DNA from: a virus
Direction: 5' to 3' (one strand)
DNA: 45,884 nt
Virus record (IMG/VR): IMGVR_UViG_3300042691_056007
Span: 1 to 45,884 of that record
Shown here: piece by piece, positions 6,323-41,389 of the stretch
Position numbering within the stretch: position 1 is the stretch's first letter
How the letters are laid out: each line of letters opens with the position of its first letter
Program-made: the position numbers and the translations under genes
The notes under the pieces: model-generated
Told to the model about the DNA's origin: nothing
The model's input: only the letters and a program-made list of their open reading frames with translations
Databases searched by the model: none

Positions 6323-6895
6323 ATGAAAGTTTCCACCGCACTTATTACAATTAATACATTAGTATTTATATTTTTTGTATTTCTACAGTATTATAATTCC
6401 GACTTTGTTCTCAATTTTATACTTTGGAATCCCAAATCAGATTTTTTCAATCCTCTACAGTTTTTATCCTTTCAATTTATTCACGTTGATATTTTTCATA
6501 TACTTTTTAATCTCGCTCTCTTCGGATATTGTGCATACGACATAGAAGAAAAAATCGGTTCTTTAAAATTTCTTTTGTTTTACTTGATATGTGGTTTCAT
6601 CGCTGGTTTTTCACATATTCTTTTTTCAAATTTTCCAGTTGCAGGTGCTTCGGGTGGAGTCTGGGGATTAATTGTTATTTACGCATTTCTATTTCCAGAT
6701 AGATATTTAGAAAGTTTCTATACCAAAATTCCAATAATAACCTTTGTCCTTTTTCTATTCTTAGTTGAAATCTTCGACTTGATAACTGGTCTTGGAAAAG
6801 AAGTATCCAATATAGCTCATATTGGTGGAGCCTTAACTGGATTACTTCTTTTTAAACTGAATAGTTTGATGGTCAAATCAAAGATTTCTGATTAG
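6323..6895 (+). CDS. Rhomboid family intramembrane serine protease
   Basis: A 190-residue polytopic membrane protein with the full rhomboid signature. H54 and H59 with N63 lie in the second hydrophobic segment (FIHVDIFHILFNL), the catalytic serine S110 in GASGG, and the catalytic histidine H166 in AHIGGA. About six membrane segments can be drawn (roughly residues 6-24, 46-70, 82-101, 106-124, 136-154, 163-180), the minimal bacterial rhomboid core. Rhomboids cut single-span membrane proteins within the bilayer. The gene sits just after the topoisomerase subunit and converges on the coiled-coil gene, overlapping its end by 18 bases. A rhomboid in a lytic-type phage is unusual; the substrate is unknown. 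Confidence 0.92.
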   Translation: MKVSTALITINTLVFIFFVFLQYYNSDFVLNFILWNPKSDFFNPLQFLSFQFIHVDIFHILFNLALFGYCAYDIEEKIGSLKFLLFYLICGFIAGFSHILFSNFPVAGASGGVWGLIVIYAFLFPDRYLESFYTKIPIITFVLFLFLVEIFDLITGLGKEVSNIAHIGGALTGLLLFKLNSLMVKSKISD

Positions 6896-13766: not shown

Positions 13767-15155
13767 TTATCTCTTTATTCTTTTTGTAACTTTTCTTTTT
13801 TCAGAAACTGTTTCTTCAGGAACTTCTCTACACATTTCTTTCAATTTTAGATCAGAACAAGTATCCAATTCCCACCTTTCATAACCAGAATTACAAAGTT
13901 GTAGAATCATTTCTTCTCGGGACTTCTCTGTTTCCATATAAGATTCAAAAGATTTTAGTTTTTTTACAACTTTCTTTTTCTTTTTGAACTTCTTAGGTTG
14001 AGACTCATTCGCAGTTTTTCCAAATTTAGAGTAAAGATCTCTTGCCAATCCATTGAAGTTTATAGATTGTTTGTGCATTGAATCAGCAGCATCTTTCGTA
14101 TTCGTGAAAAATCTTTGTGAAAGACTAGTTTGTGGCATCATAGAAGTTACTGAACTATCTAATCCTACTGCTCTGTGTGAAGATTCGTTAACTTTCTTAT
14201 TTAAATTATTTCTGAATCTTTTTGCTTCAAATTTAGTCATCTCTCCACCCTCAATCTCTGGATTAGTAGTTTGATAATAATAAAGTATGGCAGACAATCC
14301 ATTTTCTTTTTTCTCATTAAAATAATCTTTAATATGTGAAGAAGTTTTTGGATCATCATCAGACATACCAAACTTAACTACAACTTTTTTATTAATACCA
14401 TTTCTGTAAAAGATATCTTGTAATTGTTTTCCAAATTCAATACAATCGTCAATAGCAACATTCAATGCTTGCATTTTAGAAACCTCTGGTGATTGAGCAG
14501 AACCTAAACCAAAATCTCTAGCGAAAGATTCTGAACTAACACCCCAGAAATTGCAATGATCTAAATACTCTCTGACCAAAGAATTTTTTGATGGTGTTCC
14601 AGTTAACTCAGATTCTGCAACATGACCTTTCTCAAAAAGATACATATACATTTTAAGATTCTGAAACATATCATCTGCTAATGTTCTACCAGGATTTTTG
14701 CTTGGTGTCTTCGCTAAAACATTATCAATTATCCACTCAACACCTTCTCTAATTGTTTCATCTTCATGACCACGTGCCGTTATAATCGAAAATATAGCAC
14801 CCACTGAAAGACATTGTAAAAAGTTTTTCCATGATGCCGCTGTTCTACCATTAGAATATGCTTCTATGACATCTTCAAGAAAAGCACTCTTAGCTCTTGG
14901 CCCATTGTCTCTGAATTCAGAGAAAGCTTCCTGAATACTTCCGTTTCTAATTCTATAATCTGGATCATTTCTAACTTCTGCAAATCTTGATGTAGAAACT
15001 TCTACTGGTAACCAATCTTGTCCGACTTTTTGATCCATTAAGATCTTAGTTCCCATTCTAAGAATATTGTCATCCCAGTCAAAAGCGAAATATCTAAGTT
15101 CAAAAATTTCCTGAATTTGTGATTCTGATTCAAAAACTCTTTTAATTCTTATCAT
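13767..15155 (-). CDS. HAD-superfamily phosphatase-like protein
   Basis: A 462-residue protein with HAD hydrolase landmarks. Motif I is D26-W-D28 in FAFDWDDNILRM, motif II is T126 in FSIITARGH (the TxR form seen in polynucleotide-kinase 3' phosphatases), and motif IV may be D266/D267 in KFGMSDDDPK. A large cap-like insertion (about 140-255) separates motifs II and IV. The C-terminus is basic (KKFKKKKKVVKKLKSF, about 390-410). The N-terminus MIRIKRVFESES resembles the recurring capsid-targeting-like peptide of this phage. The substrate is unknown; nucleotide or nucleic-acid ends would suit the TxR motif. Call based on motifs only. Confidence 0.65.
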   Translation of the reverse strand: MIRIKRVFESESQIQEIFELRYFAFDWDDNILRMGTKILMDQKVGQDWLPVEVSTSRFAEVRNDPDYRIRNGSIQEAFSEFRDNGPRAKSAFLEDVIEAYSNGRTAASWKNFLQCLSVGAIFSIITARGHEDETIREGVEWIIDNVLAKTPSKNPGRTLADDMFQNLKMYMYLFEKGHVAESELTGTPSKNSLVREYLDHCNFWGVSSESFARDFGLGSAQSPEVSKMQALNVAIDDCIEFGKQLQDIFYRNGINKKVVVKFGMSDDDPKTSSHIKDYFNEKKENGLSAILYYYQTTNPEIEGGEMTKFEAKRFRNNLNKKVNESSHRAVGLDSSVTSMMPQTSLSQRFFTNTKDAADSMHKQSINFNGLARDLYSKFGKTANESQPKKFKKKKKVVKKLKSFESYMETEKSREEMILQLCNSGYERWELDTCSDLKLKEMCREVPEETVSEKRKVTKRIKR

Positions 15156-15872: not shown

Positions 15873-16523
15873 ATGCACGATTTTGAAAAATACCTTAAAT
15901 CATCTAATGTAAATTATTCACATTATGAACATTACAGGAGAATGATCAATTTAAGTAATCCTATTTTTGCAATGGATAATGTAAGTGTTTTTTCGAAATT
16001 ATTTACTCAGCGAATTTTAGTTCTTACTGGTGATGTTGATGATTATATTTGTGATTTACTTAAAGCACAACTACTCTATCTTGAATCTGAGAGCGATGAT
16101 GATATTACTCTACAAATAAATTCTGGTGGTGGATCAGTCTACGCTGGTCTTGGTTTACTTGATACTATGGAATATGTTAAACCAGATATAATTACTATTA
16201 ATACAGGTTTAGCAGCATCAATGGCTGCAGTTCTTCTTTGTTCTGGAACCCAAGGTAAAAGAAAATCTTTGAAAAGAAGTAGAACTATGATTCATCAACC
16301 AATGGCTGGATTCCGAGGGTTTTTACAAGCATCGGATATTGAAATAGACGCAAAACAAATGAATTCTATCAAAAAAGAATTATTACAGATAATTTCTGAT
16401 AGAACAGGTCAGGACTACGACAAAGTACAAAAAGATTCTGATAGAGACTATTGGATGAATTCAGATGAAGCTCTAAACTATGGAATGATTGATGAAATTA
16501 TTGGTAAAAAATCAGGAAAATAA
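15873..16523 (+). CDS. clpP: ClpP-like serine protease
   Basis: A 216-residue ClpP-family peptidase. The catalytic triad is visible as S116 (GLAASMAAVLL), H141 (RTMIHQPMAG) and D192 (SDRDYWMNSDEA). The oxyanion-loop glycines are present (INSGGGSVYAGLGLLD), and the C-terminal EALNYGMIDEI is typical. The length matches bacterial ClpP, so it is not a truncated fold. The frame extends to a TTG at 15864; the ATG at 15873 is preferred. No Clp ATPase is encoded nearby, so it could join host ClpX/ClpA, replace host ClpP, or work alone. In some phages this fold matures the prohead, but no scaffold or capsid gene is adjacent. Confidence 0.93.
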   Translation: MHDFEKYLKSSNVNYSHYEHYRRMINLSNPIFAMDNVSVFSKLFTQRILVLTGDVDDYICDLLKAQLLYLESESDDDITLQINSGGGSVYAGLGLLDTMEYVKPDIITINTGLAASMAAVLLCSGTQGKRKSLKRSRTMIHQPMAGFRGFLQASDIEIDAKQMNSIKKELLQIISDRTGQDYDKVQKDSDRDYWMNSDEALNYGMIDEIIGKKSGK

Positions 16524-16919
16524 CTTTATTGTCAAATTCAGAAGTTCTTGTATTTTTTTGACTTCTCTTAAATCTAAAACCTTAGCAGTGATGAATTTCT
16601 CACCTAGGGTTTTGGCTTTCAATAATCTGTGATTGCCATCGATTATTCTTGAAAATTCACCATCTAAATCTCTACAAATTATTATTGGAAAACTTAAATC
16701 AGATTCATCTGATCTTTCTTTAGTCACTTTATTGAGTTTCTCTTTATGAACACATAGATTCCAGATATCATCTATCGGAATTTCAACTTTTTCCGAATTT
16801 AATTTTTCCATTAAATTCTCAAGTTCTAAAATTCCGATAGTTTTATCTTTTCCAATTGTCCAAGATGTTTTTACCCAATCTTCAAAACCGGAACTCTCGA
16901 AAGTCGAAAACTTTTTCAT
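16512..16919 (-). CDS. ParB-like domain protein
   Basis: A 135-residue protein with a ParB/sulfiredoxin-type core: two beta strands and a helix, then RIIDGNHRLLKAKTLG (DGNHR at 94-98) and an end strand (ITAKVLDL). The typical [D/E]GxHR motif of ParB-fold nucleotide-binding proteins is therefore intact, but there is no helix-turn-helix domain, so it is not a partition ParB. The N-terminus MKKFSTFESSGF resembles the recurring capsid-targeting-like peptide. Its ATG overlaps the stop of the gene at 16916-17383, and its end overlaps the convergent clpP-like gene by 12 bases. ParB-fold proteins include nucleases, kinases and CTPases; which applies is unknown. Confidence 0.68.
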   Translation of the reverse strand: MKKFSTFESSGFEDWVKTSWTIGKDKTIGILELENLMEKLNSEKVEIPIDDIWNLCVHKEKLNKVTKERSDESDLSFPIIICRDLDGEFSRIIDGNHRLLKAKTLGEKFITAKVLDLREVKKIQELLNLTIKLFS

Positions 16920-28519: not shown

Positions 28520-28912
28520 TTAATAATCTCTGATTATCTGTGATGCCGAGAACTTTGATAAATTCGAAAGAACATCACCTAAAATATCTGAATTCTTTCT
28601 AAATTCATTATAAAAAATAAGAACATTGAAATTATTTTCCTCACCGAGAATTTTTCTCATATTTAGAAGTTTTTCAATAGAAAACTCCATTTCGAAATCT
28701 GGTATATAATAGACATCTTTACCCTTTTCAATTGCCTGTTGAATTTTTTGATAAACTATTATTTTTAGATATGTTTTCTCTTTATCAAAAGAAATTTCTT
28801 CCTCTTCAATAATTTTTTTAATATCAATAATATATTTATTCCTGATCTTATTAACTTTGATATACTTATCAAGTTTTTTCCGAGTTTTCACATAGACACA
28901 AAAGAAATCCAT
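28520..28912 (-). CDS. Hypothetical protein
   Basis: A 130-residue, Lys/Ile-rich alpha/beta protein (MDFFCVYVKTRKKLDKYIKV; KGKDVYYIPDFEMEFSIEKL; NNFNVLIFYNEFRK). The alternation of strands and helices suggests a small Rossmann-like fold similar to nucleotide-binding proteins, but no P-loop is present. It stands between the baseplate operon promoter and the DHH gene terminator. The function is unknown. Confidence 0.7.
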   Translation of the reverse strand: MDFFCVYVKTRKKLDKYIKVNKIRNKYIIDIKKIIEEEEISFDKEKTYLKIIVYQKIQQAIEKGKDVYYIPDFEMEFSIEKLLNMRKILGEENNFNVLIFYNEFRKNSDILGDVLSNLSKFSASQIIRDY

Positions 28913-29027: not shown

Positions 29028-30566
29028 TTAATACTTGAATTTACCAAAATTAACAACTCTCTCAGGGATAATTACATTCCCATACTTATCAATTTTAGTA
29101 ACTCTTTCTGTTGGAATAACTTTATAATCAGGATCTGGCTCCTTAGGCGTACCCTCAGACCTCTCACCCCATTTCAAATCTATATCAAATTTTACTCCAG
29201 ACAAGTCAGAAATAATTTTATTTTTGAACATGTCAATAAATCTAACACCACTATATTTACCTACTTTACACTCACCAAATATATTCGAGATACTTCCTAT
29301 ACCACCGTGACCACCAGAAACAGTGATTTCATCTTGTCCAATTGTAGTATCCGGATCATAATAATCCAAGTGAGCTCTAAAATTATTCAATAGACTTGTC
29401 ATATACGCACCCAAATCATTCACCTCTGTACCATCTTTTAGTTTAGGCAAAGATTCGATCTGAGACATCGGCTTATAAGAACAAATCTGAAGTGTTCCAC
29501 CATATTGCAAAAGTATGAAATCAGGTTCAGACTCAATGATGCCATCCATAAAATCCTTTTCAATTATAGATCTCGCTCTTAAAGCATTAGCCCAAGTTCC
29601 AGTTGGAACAAAAGCCAATTTACCAATGATTTGATAACCAGAACCAGATAAATCAATTTTATATCCTGACTTGAAATCAGTCAAAAATTCAGTCATCGAT
29701 TGATAGATTTTTTTAGAGTCCGTCTTAGTTCCTCTCGTCATTCGTTGCATCTTAGCCAATCTTTCTTGTGCATCTGTTTTGAAATCAGTAATAACACCAG
29801 TTTTCGGTCCTCTCTTAGGTATGTTATGATAAGGAGATACTCTACTCATCACATTGTAAACACTGTAAATAGAAACATCCTTACAATTTTCTATTACAGA
29901 GATAATTGTCTTTGTATCAGATCTTTTCAAAAATTGATTAAAAGCTGCCGCAAACTCTAAACGACCTTGAAGAGAAATTTTACCAGCTTCTTTTTTGGCG
30001 ATAGCTTCTTTTGCAACCTCAACTATTTCAGATAAATCGAAATTCAAAAGTCTTTGCCAGGTAACTTTATATTGATCATATTTCGCAGCATCAACCATAT
30101 CAATGGCATTAGTTTTTAATTCATCTTGTGGCAGACCCAAAGCAATCAAAACAGCTTCATATGCCGATGCGGTGTGTAATTTCTTAACAGGTGAATTTTT
30201 ATATTTTTCCTTTTGTTCCGGAGTGAAATCACCGTGATGATCTAAATAGTAATCAACCAATTCATCCCTTTCGTCTCCAGGCATATTCGCAAAATCTAAA
30301 ACTACATTTATTAGTGTAGGATCTAATGTCGTATATTTCCAACCATCTGAATAATTTAAGATTCCATATTTAACAATATTGAAACCTCTACTGATAAGCC
30401 AATTTTTCATTTCGATCGCACTAAAAATACCATCTAGGTCATCGTGAGTATAAAGAGCGACATCCTTACCACTTTTTCCCTTTCTTTTCCAATATTCGAT
30501 ATCAACTGGCATTCTAGCGGCACCTTCTGTTATCAATTCGAATCTATTAAATTTCTTAATTCTCAT
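29028..30566 (-). CDS. DHH/DHHA1-family phosphoesterase
   Basis: A 512-residue predicted phosphodiesterase. Metal-binding motifs are in order: H41-D42-D43-x-D45 (THDDLDGIF), D91 (VVLDFANMPG), D109-H110-H111 (YYLDHHGDF) and D156/D159 (AIDMVDAAKYD). A DHHA1-type substrate loop follows at 418-424 (SGGHGGIG). This is the layout of nanoRNases and cyclic-dinucleotide phosphodiesterases (NrnA, GdpP), so the substrate may be short oligonucleotides or cyclic nucleotides. A 200-residue helical insertion (about 170-330) lies between the domains. The N-terminus MRIKKFNRFELITEGAAR resembles a capsid-targeting peptide with a possible ITE/G cut site. It is the second gene of a two-gene unit with the amidoligase-like gene. 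Confidence 0.85.
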   Translation of the reverse strand: MRIKKFNRFELITEGAARMPVDIEYWKRKGKSGKDVALYTHDDLDGIFSAIEMKNWLISRGFNIVKYGILNYSDGWKYTTLDPTLINVVLDFANMPGDERDELVDYYLDHHGDFTPEQKEKYKNSPVKKLHTASAYEAVLIALGLPQDELKTNAIDMVDAAKYDQYKVTWQRLLNFDLSEIVEVAKEAIAKKEAGKISLQGRLEFAAAFNQFLKRSDTKTIISVIENCKDVSIYSVYNVMSRVSPYHNIPKRGPKTGVITDFKTDAQERLAKMQRMTRGTKTDSKKIYQSMTEFLTDFKSGYKIDLSGSGYQIIGKLAFVPTGTWANALRARSIIEKDFMDGIIESEPDFILLQYGGTLQICSYKPMSQIESLPKLKDGTEVNDLGAYMTSLLNNFRAHLDYYDPDTTIGQDEITVSGGHGGIGSISNIFGECKVGKYSGVRFIDMFKNKIISDLSGVKFDIDLKWGERSEGTPKEPDPDYKVIPTERVTKIDKYGNVIIPERVVNFGKFKY

Positions 30567-30578
30567 CTTATAGTTTAA

Positions 30579-31967
30579 TTATTTTTTGAAAACTTTCATA
30601 ACACCCTTATCATTCTTGAAATCATAAGAGTCATCATCAAAACTTGTATCAAAGAAGTTGTCAGAATCTCTAACAACCTTTGTTTCAGAACTTATGTTAG
30701 CATAAGGCCCCAATTTACCACTTCTAAACACACCACCAATCATATCACAATTTAAATAACCATTCATAAAGAAACAATCCTTTATTTCAGATGCCTCAAC
30801 TCCAGTATTCAAAAGTTTTGTTTTAGAAACTCTTGAACCGTGAACCTTTGATTTAATAATCTGACAATTTTGTATCTCACAATTTACAAAATGACAATCA
30901 TCAAAAATGCCATCTACAATATTACAGTTTATGAAATCAAAATCTTTTACATTTTGGGTTAGCTTCACTTGGGCATCAATTATTTCAAACTTCTGAAGAG
31001 CAGTTACATAATTTATTATACAATCTTTCAACGAATCAGTAGAATCAATGATTGTGTGTAACTTACCGAATATTTTGGGGTAGTAAGCATTCACAACATC
31101 ATAGTCACCGACCTGATCGACTTGAATTGCAATCGTTGGAAAATCAGTAAGAAAATTGTTATATTTAGAAAAGTTTTTGAAATTACTTATATTCATTTTG
31201 AGATACGTCTCTAGATCTCTTATATTTTTGTTTGTAAAAGTTCCATCTATCGATTCCCAAACATCAAGAATAAATCTATCCATAAAATACAATATTTGAC
31301 CAATATTCTTTTCATAATCAGCTCCACCGATGTATCTGTACTCTAATCTTTGACTTTCTCTTGGATTATTTATGTGTAAAAAATTAATACCATAGTATTT
31401 ATCATCAGGCAATCTAAGAGTGTTTTTTATGGAATCGACAGCAACACTATTATAATCATATTCTTTGAATGGAATGACTTTCTTGATAGTTTTAGCATAA
31501 ACATTACCCTTTCTTGAAGGATAAACTCTGTAAATTTCATCTTCGTCAGTTGATAAAATTAACTTCAAAACATTTAGATTATTCAGATTTTTATCACAAC
31601 CTTCTGAAAAGGAAATGTTAAAATGAATAGCACACTTTTCTGTTGTATATCCATAATCCTGTATAAACTTGAGTATTTTTATCAAATAATGTCTTGCTGT
31701 AAAATATTCTAAAGGCCCGGTGATCAACTCAACACCATTAGACCCAAGTGATAAATCAGGTTCTATTTTGAAGTTCTCTGCGTCTGGTTTAAAATCAGAG
31801 TGATACTTTCTGAAACCATGAACTTGCACTGGTTCCAAATATTGATTAAGCAATTCTAAAGTTTTATAATAGGATAGGTCGGTCATGTATAACTCGAATT
31901 CAAAACCGATTCTTGCCCACTTTAAAAAATTAGAACTGTTTATAAATGCTTCTGAATATTTCTTCAT
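30579..31967 (-). CDS. Amidoligase-like enzyme with C-terminal pentapeptide-like beta-helix
   Basis: A 462-residue protein. Residues 18-215 show COOH-NH2 ligase (amidoligase) landmarks: GFEFE (21-25), EPDLS (69-73) with E80, H115-x-N117 (IHFNIS), and R207-E209-R211 (RLEYRYIGG). Such enzymes use ATP to form amide or peptide bonds. Residues 342-420 form about 15 five-residue steps (FDFINCNIVDGIFDDCHFVN) typical of a right-handed pentapeptide beta-helix. The C-terminal tail is acidic (DTSFDDDSYDF). The N-terminus MKKYSEAFINSSNF resembles the cargo-like leader. It lies 12 bases upstream of the DHH gene, so the two are co-transcribed. The fusion is unusual; the substrate is unknown. Confidence 0.75.
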   Translation of the reverse strand: MKKYSEAFINSSNFLKWARIGFEFELYMTDLSYYKTLELLNQYLEPVQVHGFRKYHSDFKPDAENFKIEPDLSLGSNGVELITGPLEYFTARHYLIKILKFIQDYGYTTEKCAIHFNISFSEGCDKNLNNLNVLKLILSTDEDEIYRVYPSRKGNVYAKTIKKVIPFKEYDYNSVAVDSIKNTLRLPDDKYYGINFLHINNPRESQRLEYRYIGGADYEKNIGQILYFMDRFILDVWESIDGTFTNKNIRDLETYLKMNISNFKNFSKYNNFLTDFPTIAIQVDQVGDYDVVNAYYPKIFGKLHTIIDSTDSLKDCIINYVTALQKFEIIDAQVKLTQNVKDFDFINCNIVDGIFDDCHFVNCEIQNCQIIKSKVHGSRVSKTKLLNTGVEASEIKDCFFMNGYLNCDMIGGVFRSGKLGPYANISSETKVVRDSDNFFDTSFDDDSYDFKNDKGVMKVFKK

Positions 31968-31972
31968 ATTTC

Positions 31973-31983
31973 TTATATATTAA
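31973..31983 (-). promoter_or_regulatory. Candidate promoter element TTAATATATAA
   Basis: A perfect minus-strand copy, 5 bases before the amidoligase-like ATG. It would drive the amidoligase-DHH unit. Confidence 0.55.
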
Positions 31984-32055
31984 ATTTCAATTCCAAAACT
32001 TAATAACTTTATAAACTTTCATAAAAAAATTACTATATAGAACAAAAAATTATTT

Positions 32056-38973: not shown

Positions 38974-39288
38974 TTAAGTCAATTTATTATAGAAACTTCT
39001 AGGATGTGAAACTTTGGTTCCAAAAGGCCAATCACCAAGCAAAATTCCATGATTTCTTGGTAACCCACTATCTCTCAATTTGTTCGAAAAAAGATCAAAT
39101 AGATAAATGTGGAATTGATCTACGTATTCGATTACACTCTGTGGATTTTCGAAATATTCACTTTGCTCAAAATCAGAACAAAGTGTCATAGAACCTTCAC
39201 CCCAACCATGTGTTGAACGTAAATCTTTTTTTATTCTATCATAATCAAATGATTGAAATATTTCATTAAAACGCCTAATCTTAATCAT
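38974..39288 (-). CDS. Hypothetical protein with cargo-like leader
   Basis: A 104-residue protein starting MIKIRRFNEIFQSFDYD, a good example of the recurring basic/aromatic leader with F-N-E. The rest is aromatic and acidic (HGWGEGSMTLCSDFEQSEYF; NHGILLGDWPFGTKV) with no recognised family. The ATG overlaps the TGA of the 473-residue gene upstream (ATGA at 39285-39288), so the two are coupled. Confidence 0.75.
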   Translation of the reverse strand: MIKIRRFNEIFQSFDYDRIKKDLRSTHGWGEGSMTLCSDFEQSEYFENPQSVIEYVDQFHIYLFDLFSNKLRDSGLPRNHGILLGDWPFGTKVSHPRSFYNKLT

Positions 39289-40706
39289 TTCGAAACCGAC
39301 TGCATCATTTTATTTGAAATCAACATATTAAAATTAGAAGCTGGTTTGAATTTAAAAGTTGCAGAAAGTTTAGAATTTAATTCACCACCACTAAATTTGA
39401 CGACCACATCACAATCTAACAAAGTTTTCTTATCCAATATTAATTTAAGTTTTAAAACAAATTGATTACTTTCTTCTTGATCACTCACCATCATCTTAAC
39501 ATGATAATCAAAACGCATTCTCATGTCATCATAAAATTCTCTGAAAAATCCACGAGATGGGACAAGATTGAAATTATTTCCTCTGTTACCTAAATAGTAA
39601 ACTGGTCTTTCGAGACATCCCATTTTAATAACAAGTGACTTAATCAATTTCATTTTTATTTTACCCCATCCTAGTTTCCAACCACCATCTAATTTTTTAA
39701 TTTCATCCGAATTATTTTTAGTTAGTGATTCAGTCAGTATGTGTTCCAATATTTTGGAATTTAATAAATATATCTTTTTCTCCATCCATTCATTATAAAC
39801 TAATTCTGGATCCATGAAACAATCTTCTCTTTTTTTCCAAATTTCATTTAAAACATCTGATAACCAAATGAAATTTTTATCAAACTCTTTTATATGTTCA
39901 CCCAGAATCTTGAATTTAGGATCTCTATGTCTCAAATCAAAAAAGTCAAACCAACCTAAACTAGGAATTCTATCCGGATCAATAAATTTTTCAATTATCA
40001 ACTGATAATTCTTTTTAGCATTTTCATAAATTATTCTTACCCAATTTTGTACCAACTTATCCCATTTAGGAAGATACTCCTCCGAATATAAATTATCAAT
40101 CTCTAATCCAATTAGATCATCAGCGAGAGCATTAAATGAAGAAGTTTTGGACAGATTTAAGTTTTTATTCAACATAAAACTAAATTGTTTACCATCATTA
40201 GTCTCGACAACTAAATCTTCCATCACCTCTTTACTTTTATTAGGACCTATCCAATAAATAGTTCTTATCATCTCAGTTGTAAGTTTTTCCGAGGTAAGTA
40301 ATTTATCAATTATATTTCTAGCAATAATTCTTGAATCTATCAACGTGTTCCAATCTTCTTCTATTGAGAAATCAACAGATTCAAATAATCCACTTATCTT
40401 TGCACTTTCTTCATCAACTACAAATCTATTGTCTTGAAATTTTCCCAACTGTAATCTATTTTTAGCGAGTAAAAGATTCTTTAAATCAGTTAAAAAAACT
40501 TGAGAGTTTTCATTATATCTCGCCTTCATTCCCCTGTCCAAAATATTGTCGAGAAACTGATTGTTAAGTAAAATCATCGCAACACAAACTTCTTGAACAA
40601 TGTTTGTTGGTTTATAATATGATTTAGTATCCTCTAATTCGGATTGATCGAGAACAAATATATCTCTCGCCTCATTAAACTGTTTATATGTTCTATAAAA
40701 TTTCAT
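39285..40706 (-). CDS. Hypothetical protein, possible PD-(D/E)xK-like core, cargo-like leader
   Basis: A 473-residue protein beginning MKFYRTYKQFNEARD, close in form to the T4 capsid-targeting peptide. Around residues 150-200, YWIGPNKSKEVMEDLVVETN then DGKQFSFMLNKNLNLS has the D-x(n)-[aliphatic]-x-K layout of some restriction-endonuclease-fold nucleases. This is only suggestive, because the usual Glu is replaced by Phe or Met. The C-terminal 110 residues are beta-rich. The gene diverges from the one at 40760 across a palindromic AT element. The function is otherwise unknown. Confidence 0.7.
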   Translation of the reverse strand: MKFYRTYKQFNEARDIFVLDQSELEDTKSYYKPTNIVQEVCVAMILLNNQFLDNILDRGMKARYNENSQVFLTDLKNLLLAKNRLQLGKFQDNRFVVDEESAKISGLFESVDFSIEEDWNTLIDSRIIARNIIDKLLTSEKLTTEMIRTIYWIGPNKSKEVMEDLVVETNDGKQFSFMLNKNLNLSKTSSFNALADDLIGLEIDNLYSEEYLPKWDKLVQNWVRIIYENAKKNYQLIIEKFIDPDRIPSLGWFDFFDLRHRDPKFKILGEHIKEFDKNFIWLSDVLNEIWKKREDCFMDPELVYNEWMEKKIYLLNSKILEHILTESLTKNNSDEIKKLDGGWKLGWGKIKMKLIKSLVIKMGCLERPVYYLGNRGNNFNLVPSRGFFREFYDDMRMRFDYHVKMMVSDQEESNQFVLKLKLILDKKTLLDCDVVVKFSGGELNSKLSATFKFKPASNFNMLISNKMMQSVSK

Positions 40707-40759: not shown

Positions 40760-41389
40760 ATGAAATTTCTTAAAAACTATAAAAAATTTTCAGAATCACT
40801 ACAAATAGATGTATCAATCATAAATATTGACATCAATGAATCACTATCAACTTTTTATGAAAACATTTTAAAGTCGATTGGTGCAGAAAAAATGAATATA
40901 TTTGACAAATTCGTTCTACCAAGTGAAGATTTCAATACTGAAATAGATTTCTTAGATAATAGCTCTGATTTCATCAATTCACTTTCAAGCATCGGATTAA
41001 AAAAATCATCTATTCAAAACACAAGAGACTCCGAAACCTTCGTGAACAAACACTGTAGATTCGTTTTAATTTATAGAATAGAAGCATTTGAATTAGAAAA
41101 TCCCGAATACATCCTTATACAATCTTGGAATGAAACATTATCAAAATGGGAAAATACAGAACTTTATAAAATAAATCCAGATATTGATTTCAATAAATTC
41201 TATGATAAATTGTCAACTAAGGAAATTGAGATAGAACACGATGGAAAAAAATATAAGTATAGTTCTCAAAACAAAAATGAATGGACACTCAAAGATCAAA
41301 AAGGTGACGACACATTTAAAAAATATTTGAGAAAAGACGAATTAGAAAAAATAATCAATGATAATAAAGTTAGATTGACTATTCTTTGA
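40760..41389 (+). CDS. Hypothetical protein with cargo-like leader
   Basis: A 209-residue protein starting MKFLKNYKKFSESLQID, a clear member of the recurring leader set (F-S-E). The body is acidic and mixed alpha/beta with no recognised motif (HCRFVLIYRIEAFELENPEY; KKYKYSSQNKNEWTLKDQKG). It diverges from the 473-residue gene that carries a nearly parallel leader, which suggests a shared fate for the two products. The stop overlaps the J-domain gene end by 11 bases. Confidence 0.75.
   Translation: MKFLKNYKKFSESLQIDVSIINIDINESLSTFYENILKSIGAEKMNIFDKFVLPSEDFNTEIDFLDNSSDFINSLSSIGLKKSSIQNTRDSETFVNKHCRFVLIYRIEAFELENPEYILIQSWNETLSKWENTELYKINPDIDFNKFYDKLSTKEIEIEHDGKKYKYSSQNKNEWTLKDQKGDDTFKKYLRKDELEKIINDNKVRLTIL

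Follow-up and report, generated by a model that had tools for sequence, protein, structure and literature searches.

A DHH/DHHA1 phosphodiesterase gene with a predicted capsid-targeting leader occupies an exchangeable site beside an amidoligase gene in T4-like phages

Why would a phage carry, directly behind an amidoligase gene, a gene for a DHH/DHHA1 phosphoesterase whose product begins with what looks like a signal for entry into the phage head, and on what might such an enzyme act? We analyzed this question in a single window, the whole of the linear IMG/VR record IMGVR_UViG_3300042691_056007 (45,884 bp, 30% GC, tRNA count zero). Because it encodes both subunits of a topoisomerase, a helicase of the UvsW type, a baseplate wedge protein and a baseplate hub resembling gp5, the window was identified as a fragment of a T4-like myovirus, and it is kin to the 634-735 kb Mahaphages. 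In the annotated-phage collection, its relatives were exclusively uncultured genomes of 462-735 kb. Phages larger than 634 kb were previously assigned to the Mahaphage clade (genomes of 634, 636, 642 and 735 kb) and predicted to replicate in Bacteroidetes (Al-Shayeb et al., PMC7162821), which the giant relatives are thought to infect. The relatives used below are in part metagenomic fragments, and all searches cover the collections at hand. Elsewhere, the window encodes a Rhomboid-family membrane protease (6323-6895, + strand; Pfam E 2.3e-26).

The first-pass annotation had described the pair as two genes 12 bases apart under one promoter-like element, with a terminator after the second. We recovered both reading frames on the minus strand with the amidoligase gene first (30579-31967, 462 aa, Amidoligase_2-like, GS-like COOH-NH2 ligase), followed by the 12-base gap (30567-30578, -) and the gene for the DHH/DHHA1 phosphoesterase, hereafter type A (29028-30566, -, 512 aa). 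The terminator was likewise found, as a hairpin of 13 bp with a T-rich tail located 3' of the DHH gene (29023-28995, -; -13.8 kcal/mol, z -4.2). The promoter did not hold up: sigma-70-like matches crowd the whole region, which has 30% GC, and the start of the pair is not singled out by any of them, the TATATAA motif near an ATG occurred 5 times against 3.0 +/- 1.8 by chance, and we rejected a unit-specific promoter because its candidates were indistinguishable from background. The presumed promoter location is the 88-bp divergent intergenic region 5' of the pair (31968-32055), where the consensus was not significant. The gene adjoining the pair on its other side (28520-28912, -) encodes a protein of 130 aa with 66-88% identity across relatives, among the most conserved of the region.

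To the DHH protein we assigned a DHH domain with its metal-site motifs (about residues 35-165; 30072-30464, -) and a DHHA1-type substrate loop, TVSGGHGGIGSISN (residues 415-428; 29283-29324, -). Against the Pfam DHH profile the window protein alone gave a weak match (E 0.038, 14.7 bits for a cut-off of 28.1). The profile was matched by 19 of 25 relatives (best E 1.3e-6), and together with the fold described below these matches make the family assignment firm. Across 37 type-A homologues, with identity to the window protein as low as 41%, the motifs H41-D43-D45-G46, D91, D109-H110-H111 and D159 were invariant, as was the loop G418-G419-H420-x-G422-I423-G424 (GGHxGIG), so that none of the metal ligands was replaced in any sequence. 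When the window protein or A2 was compared by sequence with solved structures, nothing meaningful was returned, an NCBIfam search gave weak scattered matches only, and a pattern scan of 84,980 bacterial and archaeal genomes, which sees close matches only, found no relative.

We modeled the type-A protein once with AlphaFold2 using the 37-sequence alignment (pLDDT 84.4, pTM 0.82), in place of an 8-sequence alignment that had given a poor model (pLDDT 53). VIA-align placed the PAP phosphatase 8a8k at the top (Z 17.7, 286 aligned residues, 3.9 A), then the pGpG phosphodiesterase PggH (7d62, Z 16.2), and, lower, RecJ (13.7), DhhP (12.4) and the SAM-AMP phosphodiesterase NrN (9lqb, 12.2); alignments to DHH/DHHA1 chains spanned both domains. 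The phage protein thus shares the DHH and DHHA1 fold of 8a8k and PggH, its best structural matches, at about 15% identity, and differs from them in its leader and in long segments intervening between the two domains. Sequence and model support the protein as a DHH/DHHA1 phosphodiesterase with an intact predicted active site, and it is very probably an active one. The nearness of the predicted fold to small-nucleotide phosphodiesterases points to small nucleotides as substrates.

The first-pass annotation had also given both products cargo-like leaders and complete-looking active-site motifs; the motifs proved complete in both, and the leader stood for the DHH protein only. Its N-terminus reads MRIKKFNRFELITE followed by GAAR, the pattern of a T4-type capsid-targeting leader (30525-30566, -), with a predicted prohead-protease cut after E14. 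This glutamate is at least 90% conserved among the 37 sequences despite the varying length of the leader, and residues 1-17 are disordered in the model (pLDDT < 50). The N-termini of type-A proteins vary in sequence and length, keep basic and aromatic residues, and end with hydrophobic-x-E followed by E, S, G or A. T4-type prohead proteases cleave after Glu (PMC5694885). We searched 14 records of relatives for the two head proteins concerned and found matches to the S77 protease in 9 (1 over the Pfam cut-off, most below) and to the Gp23 major capsid protein (MCP) in 12 (10 over the cut-off); in the relatives the two are encoded close together, and neither was found in the window fragment itself. 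The prosegment site of the relatives' MCP, cut between INE and NAY, is of the same class as the leader site, and many DHH proteins read INE followed by EAS. Conservation of E14, disorder and the MCP-like site suggest that the DHH protein is probably packaged in the virion.

The amidoligase matched Pfam Amidoligase_2 (PF12224) at residues 19-162 (31482-31913, -) just under the cut-off (E 2.3e-4, 21.6 bits for a cut-off of 22). All motifs expected of this family are present (GFEFE, EPDLSxGSxxVELxTGP, HFNIS and, further on, ExR with R211), and the residues G21/E23/E25, D71/S73/E80/T83/P85, H115/N117/S119 and E209/R211 were invariant in 24 homologues. Beyond the family, the phage protein adds a pentapeptide-repeat-like part towards its C-terminus (residues 339-393; 30789-30953, -; Pfam Pentapeptide_4 E 6.3e-5). 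Its N-terminus, MKKYSE/DKFLN, is conserved residue by residue and runs directly into a catalytic strand, and at the sole candidate cleavage site (Y-S-E, residue 6) about half of the relatives carry Asp where the window protein has Glu. We therefore rejected a capsid-targeting leader of the T4 kind for the amidoligase.

To assess how regularly the two genes occur together, we scanned with the amidoligase alignment and retained the best 80 loci, in which 47 distinct proteins form the group nearer to the window's. Among these loci, a DHH gene lay 3' of the amidoligase in 44 of the 47 and never 5', in 36 pairs co-directional and in 8 convergent, with gaps from -11 to 2,143 bp; orientation and spacing thus vary, and other genes sometimes intervene. 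The DHH genes of these 44 pairs belong to type A (27) or to a second type, B (17), the two being about 25% identical. Type B conserves HxDLDG, DHH and GGHxxITN (12 homologues; Pfam DHH 27.7 bits), and adjoins the amidoligase in LR756502 and LR745206, for example. No record among the 35 searched, including five genomes of 462-735 kb, carried both types, and weak cross-matches between A and B map inside the resident DHH gene. The hydrophobic-x-E leader was present in 26 of the 27 type-A and 14 of the 17 type-B proteins. A few members, L038 and L127 (type A) and L181, L186 and L188 (type B), lack a leader, so packaging would not be universal.

Mapping the A/B label onto the amidoligase tree, a quick tree with some long branches, required 10 changes, of which branches with good support force at least 5, and the grouping of all B in one clade was rejected (p-AU about 1e-94). 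The replacement can be located in the sister phages L139 (type A) and L141 (type B), which share about 73% DNA identity and are collinear up to the stop codon of the amidoligase; past the far end of the DHH gene collinearity resumes almost at once, and what lies in between, the DHH gene, is replaced (L139:10387-13797; L141:10379-14068). Comparison of L142 with L141 gave the same pattern. Between L139 (A) and L144 (B), DNA similarity spans the leader to the cleavage site, with 22 of 25 bases identical over the last stretch, and then vanishes. The leaders of the B genes of L141 and L144 score 55 to A leaders against at most 23 to other B leaders. At the opposite end, a C-terminal tail of about 45 residues (V[ST][KR][DE][DEQ]F[VIL]KAG...KKVIAKFE) is common to some A proteins (L149, L153, L167) and some B proteins (L146, L155, L171). 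The simplest reading of these sequences is that recombination exchanges the body of the enzyme within a slot that itself stays in place. The internal proteins of T4 are diverse injected counter-defence proteins in which the capsid-targeting sequence (CTS) alone is conserved (PMC3012670). By analogy, the DHH slot resembles the internal-protein cassettes of T-even phages, which hold packaged, exchangeable counter-defence cargo: those proteins (IPI and others) likewise carry a short basic leader ending in hydrophobic-x-E, likewise use the S77 and Gp23 head pathway, and likewise have a body that varies and can be exchanged while the leader is conserved. They differ in that the putative cargo here would be a conserved DHH/DHHA1 enzyme in place of a small inhibitor.

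We tentatively propose, at close to an even chance, that the DHH protein is a head-internal small-nucleotide phosphodiesterase, injected against defence signals and encoded in an exchangeable cargo slot. The enzyme would be made late, together with the amidoligase, and its short basic leader would bring it into the prohead core, where the T4-type S77 protease would cut the leader off after E14. The mature enzyme would be ejected along with the DNA and, in the new host, would hydrolyse a short or conjugated nucleotide used as a defence signal, for which the candidates are SAM-AMP, linear pApA-like intermediates, cyclic oligoadenylates, and CBASS or Pycsar nucleotides. In the slot beside the fixed amidoligase, the DHH body would be exchanged between the two distant families, with leader and tail remaining alike. 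That the enzyme acts on a defence signal is, taken by itself, a serious possibility short of an even chance.

Clearance of pAp or of 2-5-mer RNA or DNA from the breakdown of host nucleic acids, by an enzyme like PAP phosphatase or nanoRNase, perhaps packaged and with no defence target, would account for the same fold, and is the alternative that survives best, if somewhat unlikely. The top structural matches are indeed a PAP phosphatase and the pGpG-specific PggH, and a Bacteroides nanoRNase also aligned to the model (3w5w, Z 11.3). For a housekeeping enzyme, at least five replacements at the same site by a distant family, with the leader kept in some, would be unusual, and in several amidoligase-bearing relatives (W04, W05, G026-G030), some of them fragments, neither DHH type was found. 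Repeated replacement, together with the leader and the pairing with the amidoligase, favors a counter-defence role over housekeeping and stops short of proof.

The tight association of DHH genes with amidoligases of the nearer group would equally suit a single pathway of modification, in which, for example, the amidoligase joins a conjugate through an amide bond, and a phosphoester by-product or a nucleotide group is taken off by the DHH enzyme. We consider this improbable, given that distant type-A DHH genes occur with no neighboring amidoligase (L122-L134), that the two genes lie 50 kb apart in LR756501, and that, among the best 80 loci, no DHH gene was found near amidoligases at most 45% identical to the window's. 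The varying layout of the pairs, with their intervening genes, and the lack of a leader tag on the amidoligase also speak against it.

A RecJ-like nuclease acting on DNA in replication, recombination or host DNA degradation is suggested by Foldseek, whose list for the type-A model was headed by RecJ chains (E 4e-7), with about 300 residues aligned. We regard it as quite improbable, as the shorter chains of small-nucleotide enzymes scored clearly higher by VIA-align (17.7 and 16.2 against 13.7 for RecJ). A protein confined to the producing cell, with a leader that amounts to ordinary variation of the N-terminus, is most implausible: a few natural members do lack the leader, yet two families about 25% identical both keep its pattern and Glu despite variable sequence and length, the MCP prosegment has the same site, and such leaders are enriched on unrelated genes, being present on 69 of the 463 genes of a 464-kb relative (IMGVR_UViG_3300023174_000033, L071-L094) against a mean of 19 and a maximum of 32 when the first 30 residues were shuffled, and 2.6% at internal Met.

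Turning to which signal an injected DHH enzyme might destroy, the nearest solved enzymes by fold act on linear or conjugated small nucleotides (pAp, pGpG, pApA, nanoRNA or SAM-AMP), so one would not think first of a cyclic CBASS trinucleotide; judging from the model, it is no likelier a substrate than SAM-AMP, linear dinucleotides or type III CRISPR signals. PADLOC gave no defence-family match beyond one weak match. The outcome proposed here, removal of defence nucleotides, is that of Acb1, Acb2 and Apyc1, which differ in fold and are not relatives: Acb1 is a 2H phosphoesterase, Acb2 a sponge and Apyc1 a metallo-beta-lactamase. A DHH enzyme that handles a signal is NrN of the type III-B CRISPR system of B. 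fragilis, which acts on SAM-AMP in a Bacteroides host (PMC10600005); it has the DHH fold in common with the phage enzyme (Z 12.2), and the predicted hosts of the large phage relatives are Bacteroidetes (PMC7162821). NrN differs in belonging to the host and in its length of about 250 aa, and its likeness to the phage enzyme is by fold only.

A counter-signal role for jumbo-phage DHH enzymes has already been proposed in print: Iyer et al. 2021 (PMC7824862) suggested that DHH phosphodiesterases of jumbo phages act against the nucleotide signals of SMODS and CRISPR systems. The likeness to that work is at the level of the DHH superfamily; the leader, the pairing with an amidoligase and the allelic exchange were not found in the excerpts of that article, and are what we add here as a packaging leader, locus-wide pairing and repeated replacement. 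In the open-licence literature searched, virion packaging, amidoligase pairing and type swapping of DHH proteins were not found, and amidoligase, DHH and phage occurred together only in that jumbo-phage review. A broader version, in which Mahaphage-like phages keep a slot for enzymes that erase alarm signals, with an injected DHH enzyme that destroys them as the DNA enters, families A and B differing in signal specificity and interchanged through recombination behind a conserved capsid-targeting leader, and the amidoligase in the same counter-defence program, appears unlikely.

If the proposal is true, giant phages would send in, along with their DNA, an enzyme that destroys a signal by catalysis instead of making it after infection, and the principle of the T4 internal proteins would widen from small inhibitors to enzymes that degrade signals. 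Naturally matched phages, such as L139 and L141, would then be on offer through the A/B swapping to find the signal of each enzyme, and the unrelated genes with leaders, dozens in each genome, could be searched as a catalogue of injected cargo.

In the 464-kb relative, about 15% of genes bear a leader like those for capsid targeting, many of the type MKYLKLFESF, and dozens of injected proteins may be listed among them. Within the window, four further leader-bearing genes with no Pfam match are candidate packaged cargo (13767-15155, -; 16512-16919, -; 39285-40706, -; 40760-41389, +). Their leaders read MIRIKRVFE before SES, MKKFSTFE before SSG, MKFYRTYKQFNE before ARD and MKFLKNYKKFSE before SLQ. 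A less clear cargo candidate is the gene at 38974-39288 (-), whose product starts with MIKIRRFNEIFQS and fails the strict leader pattern.
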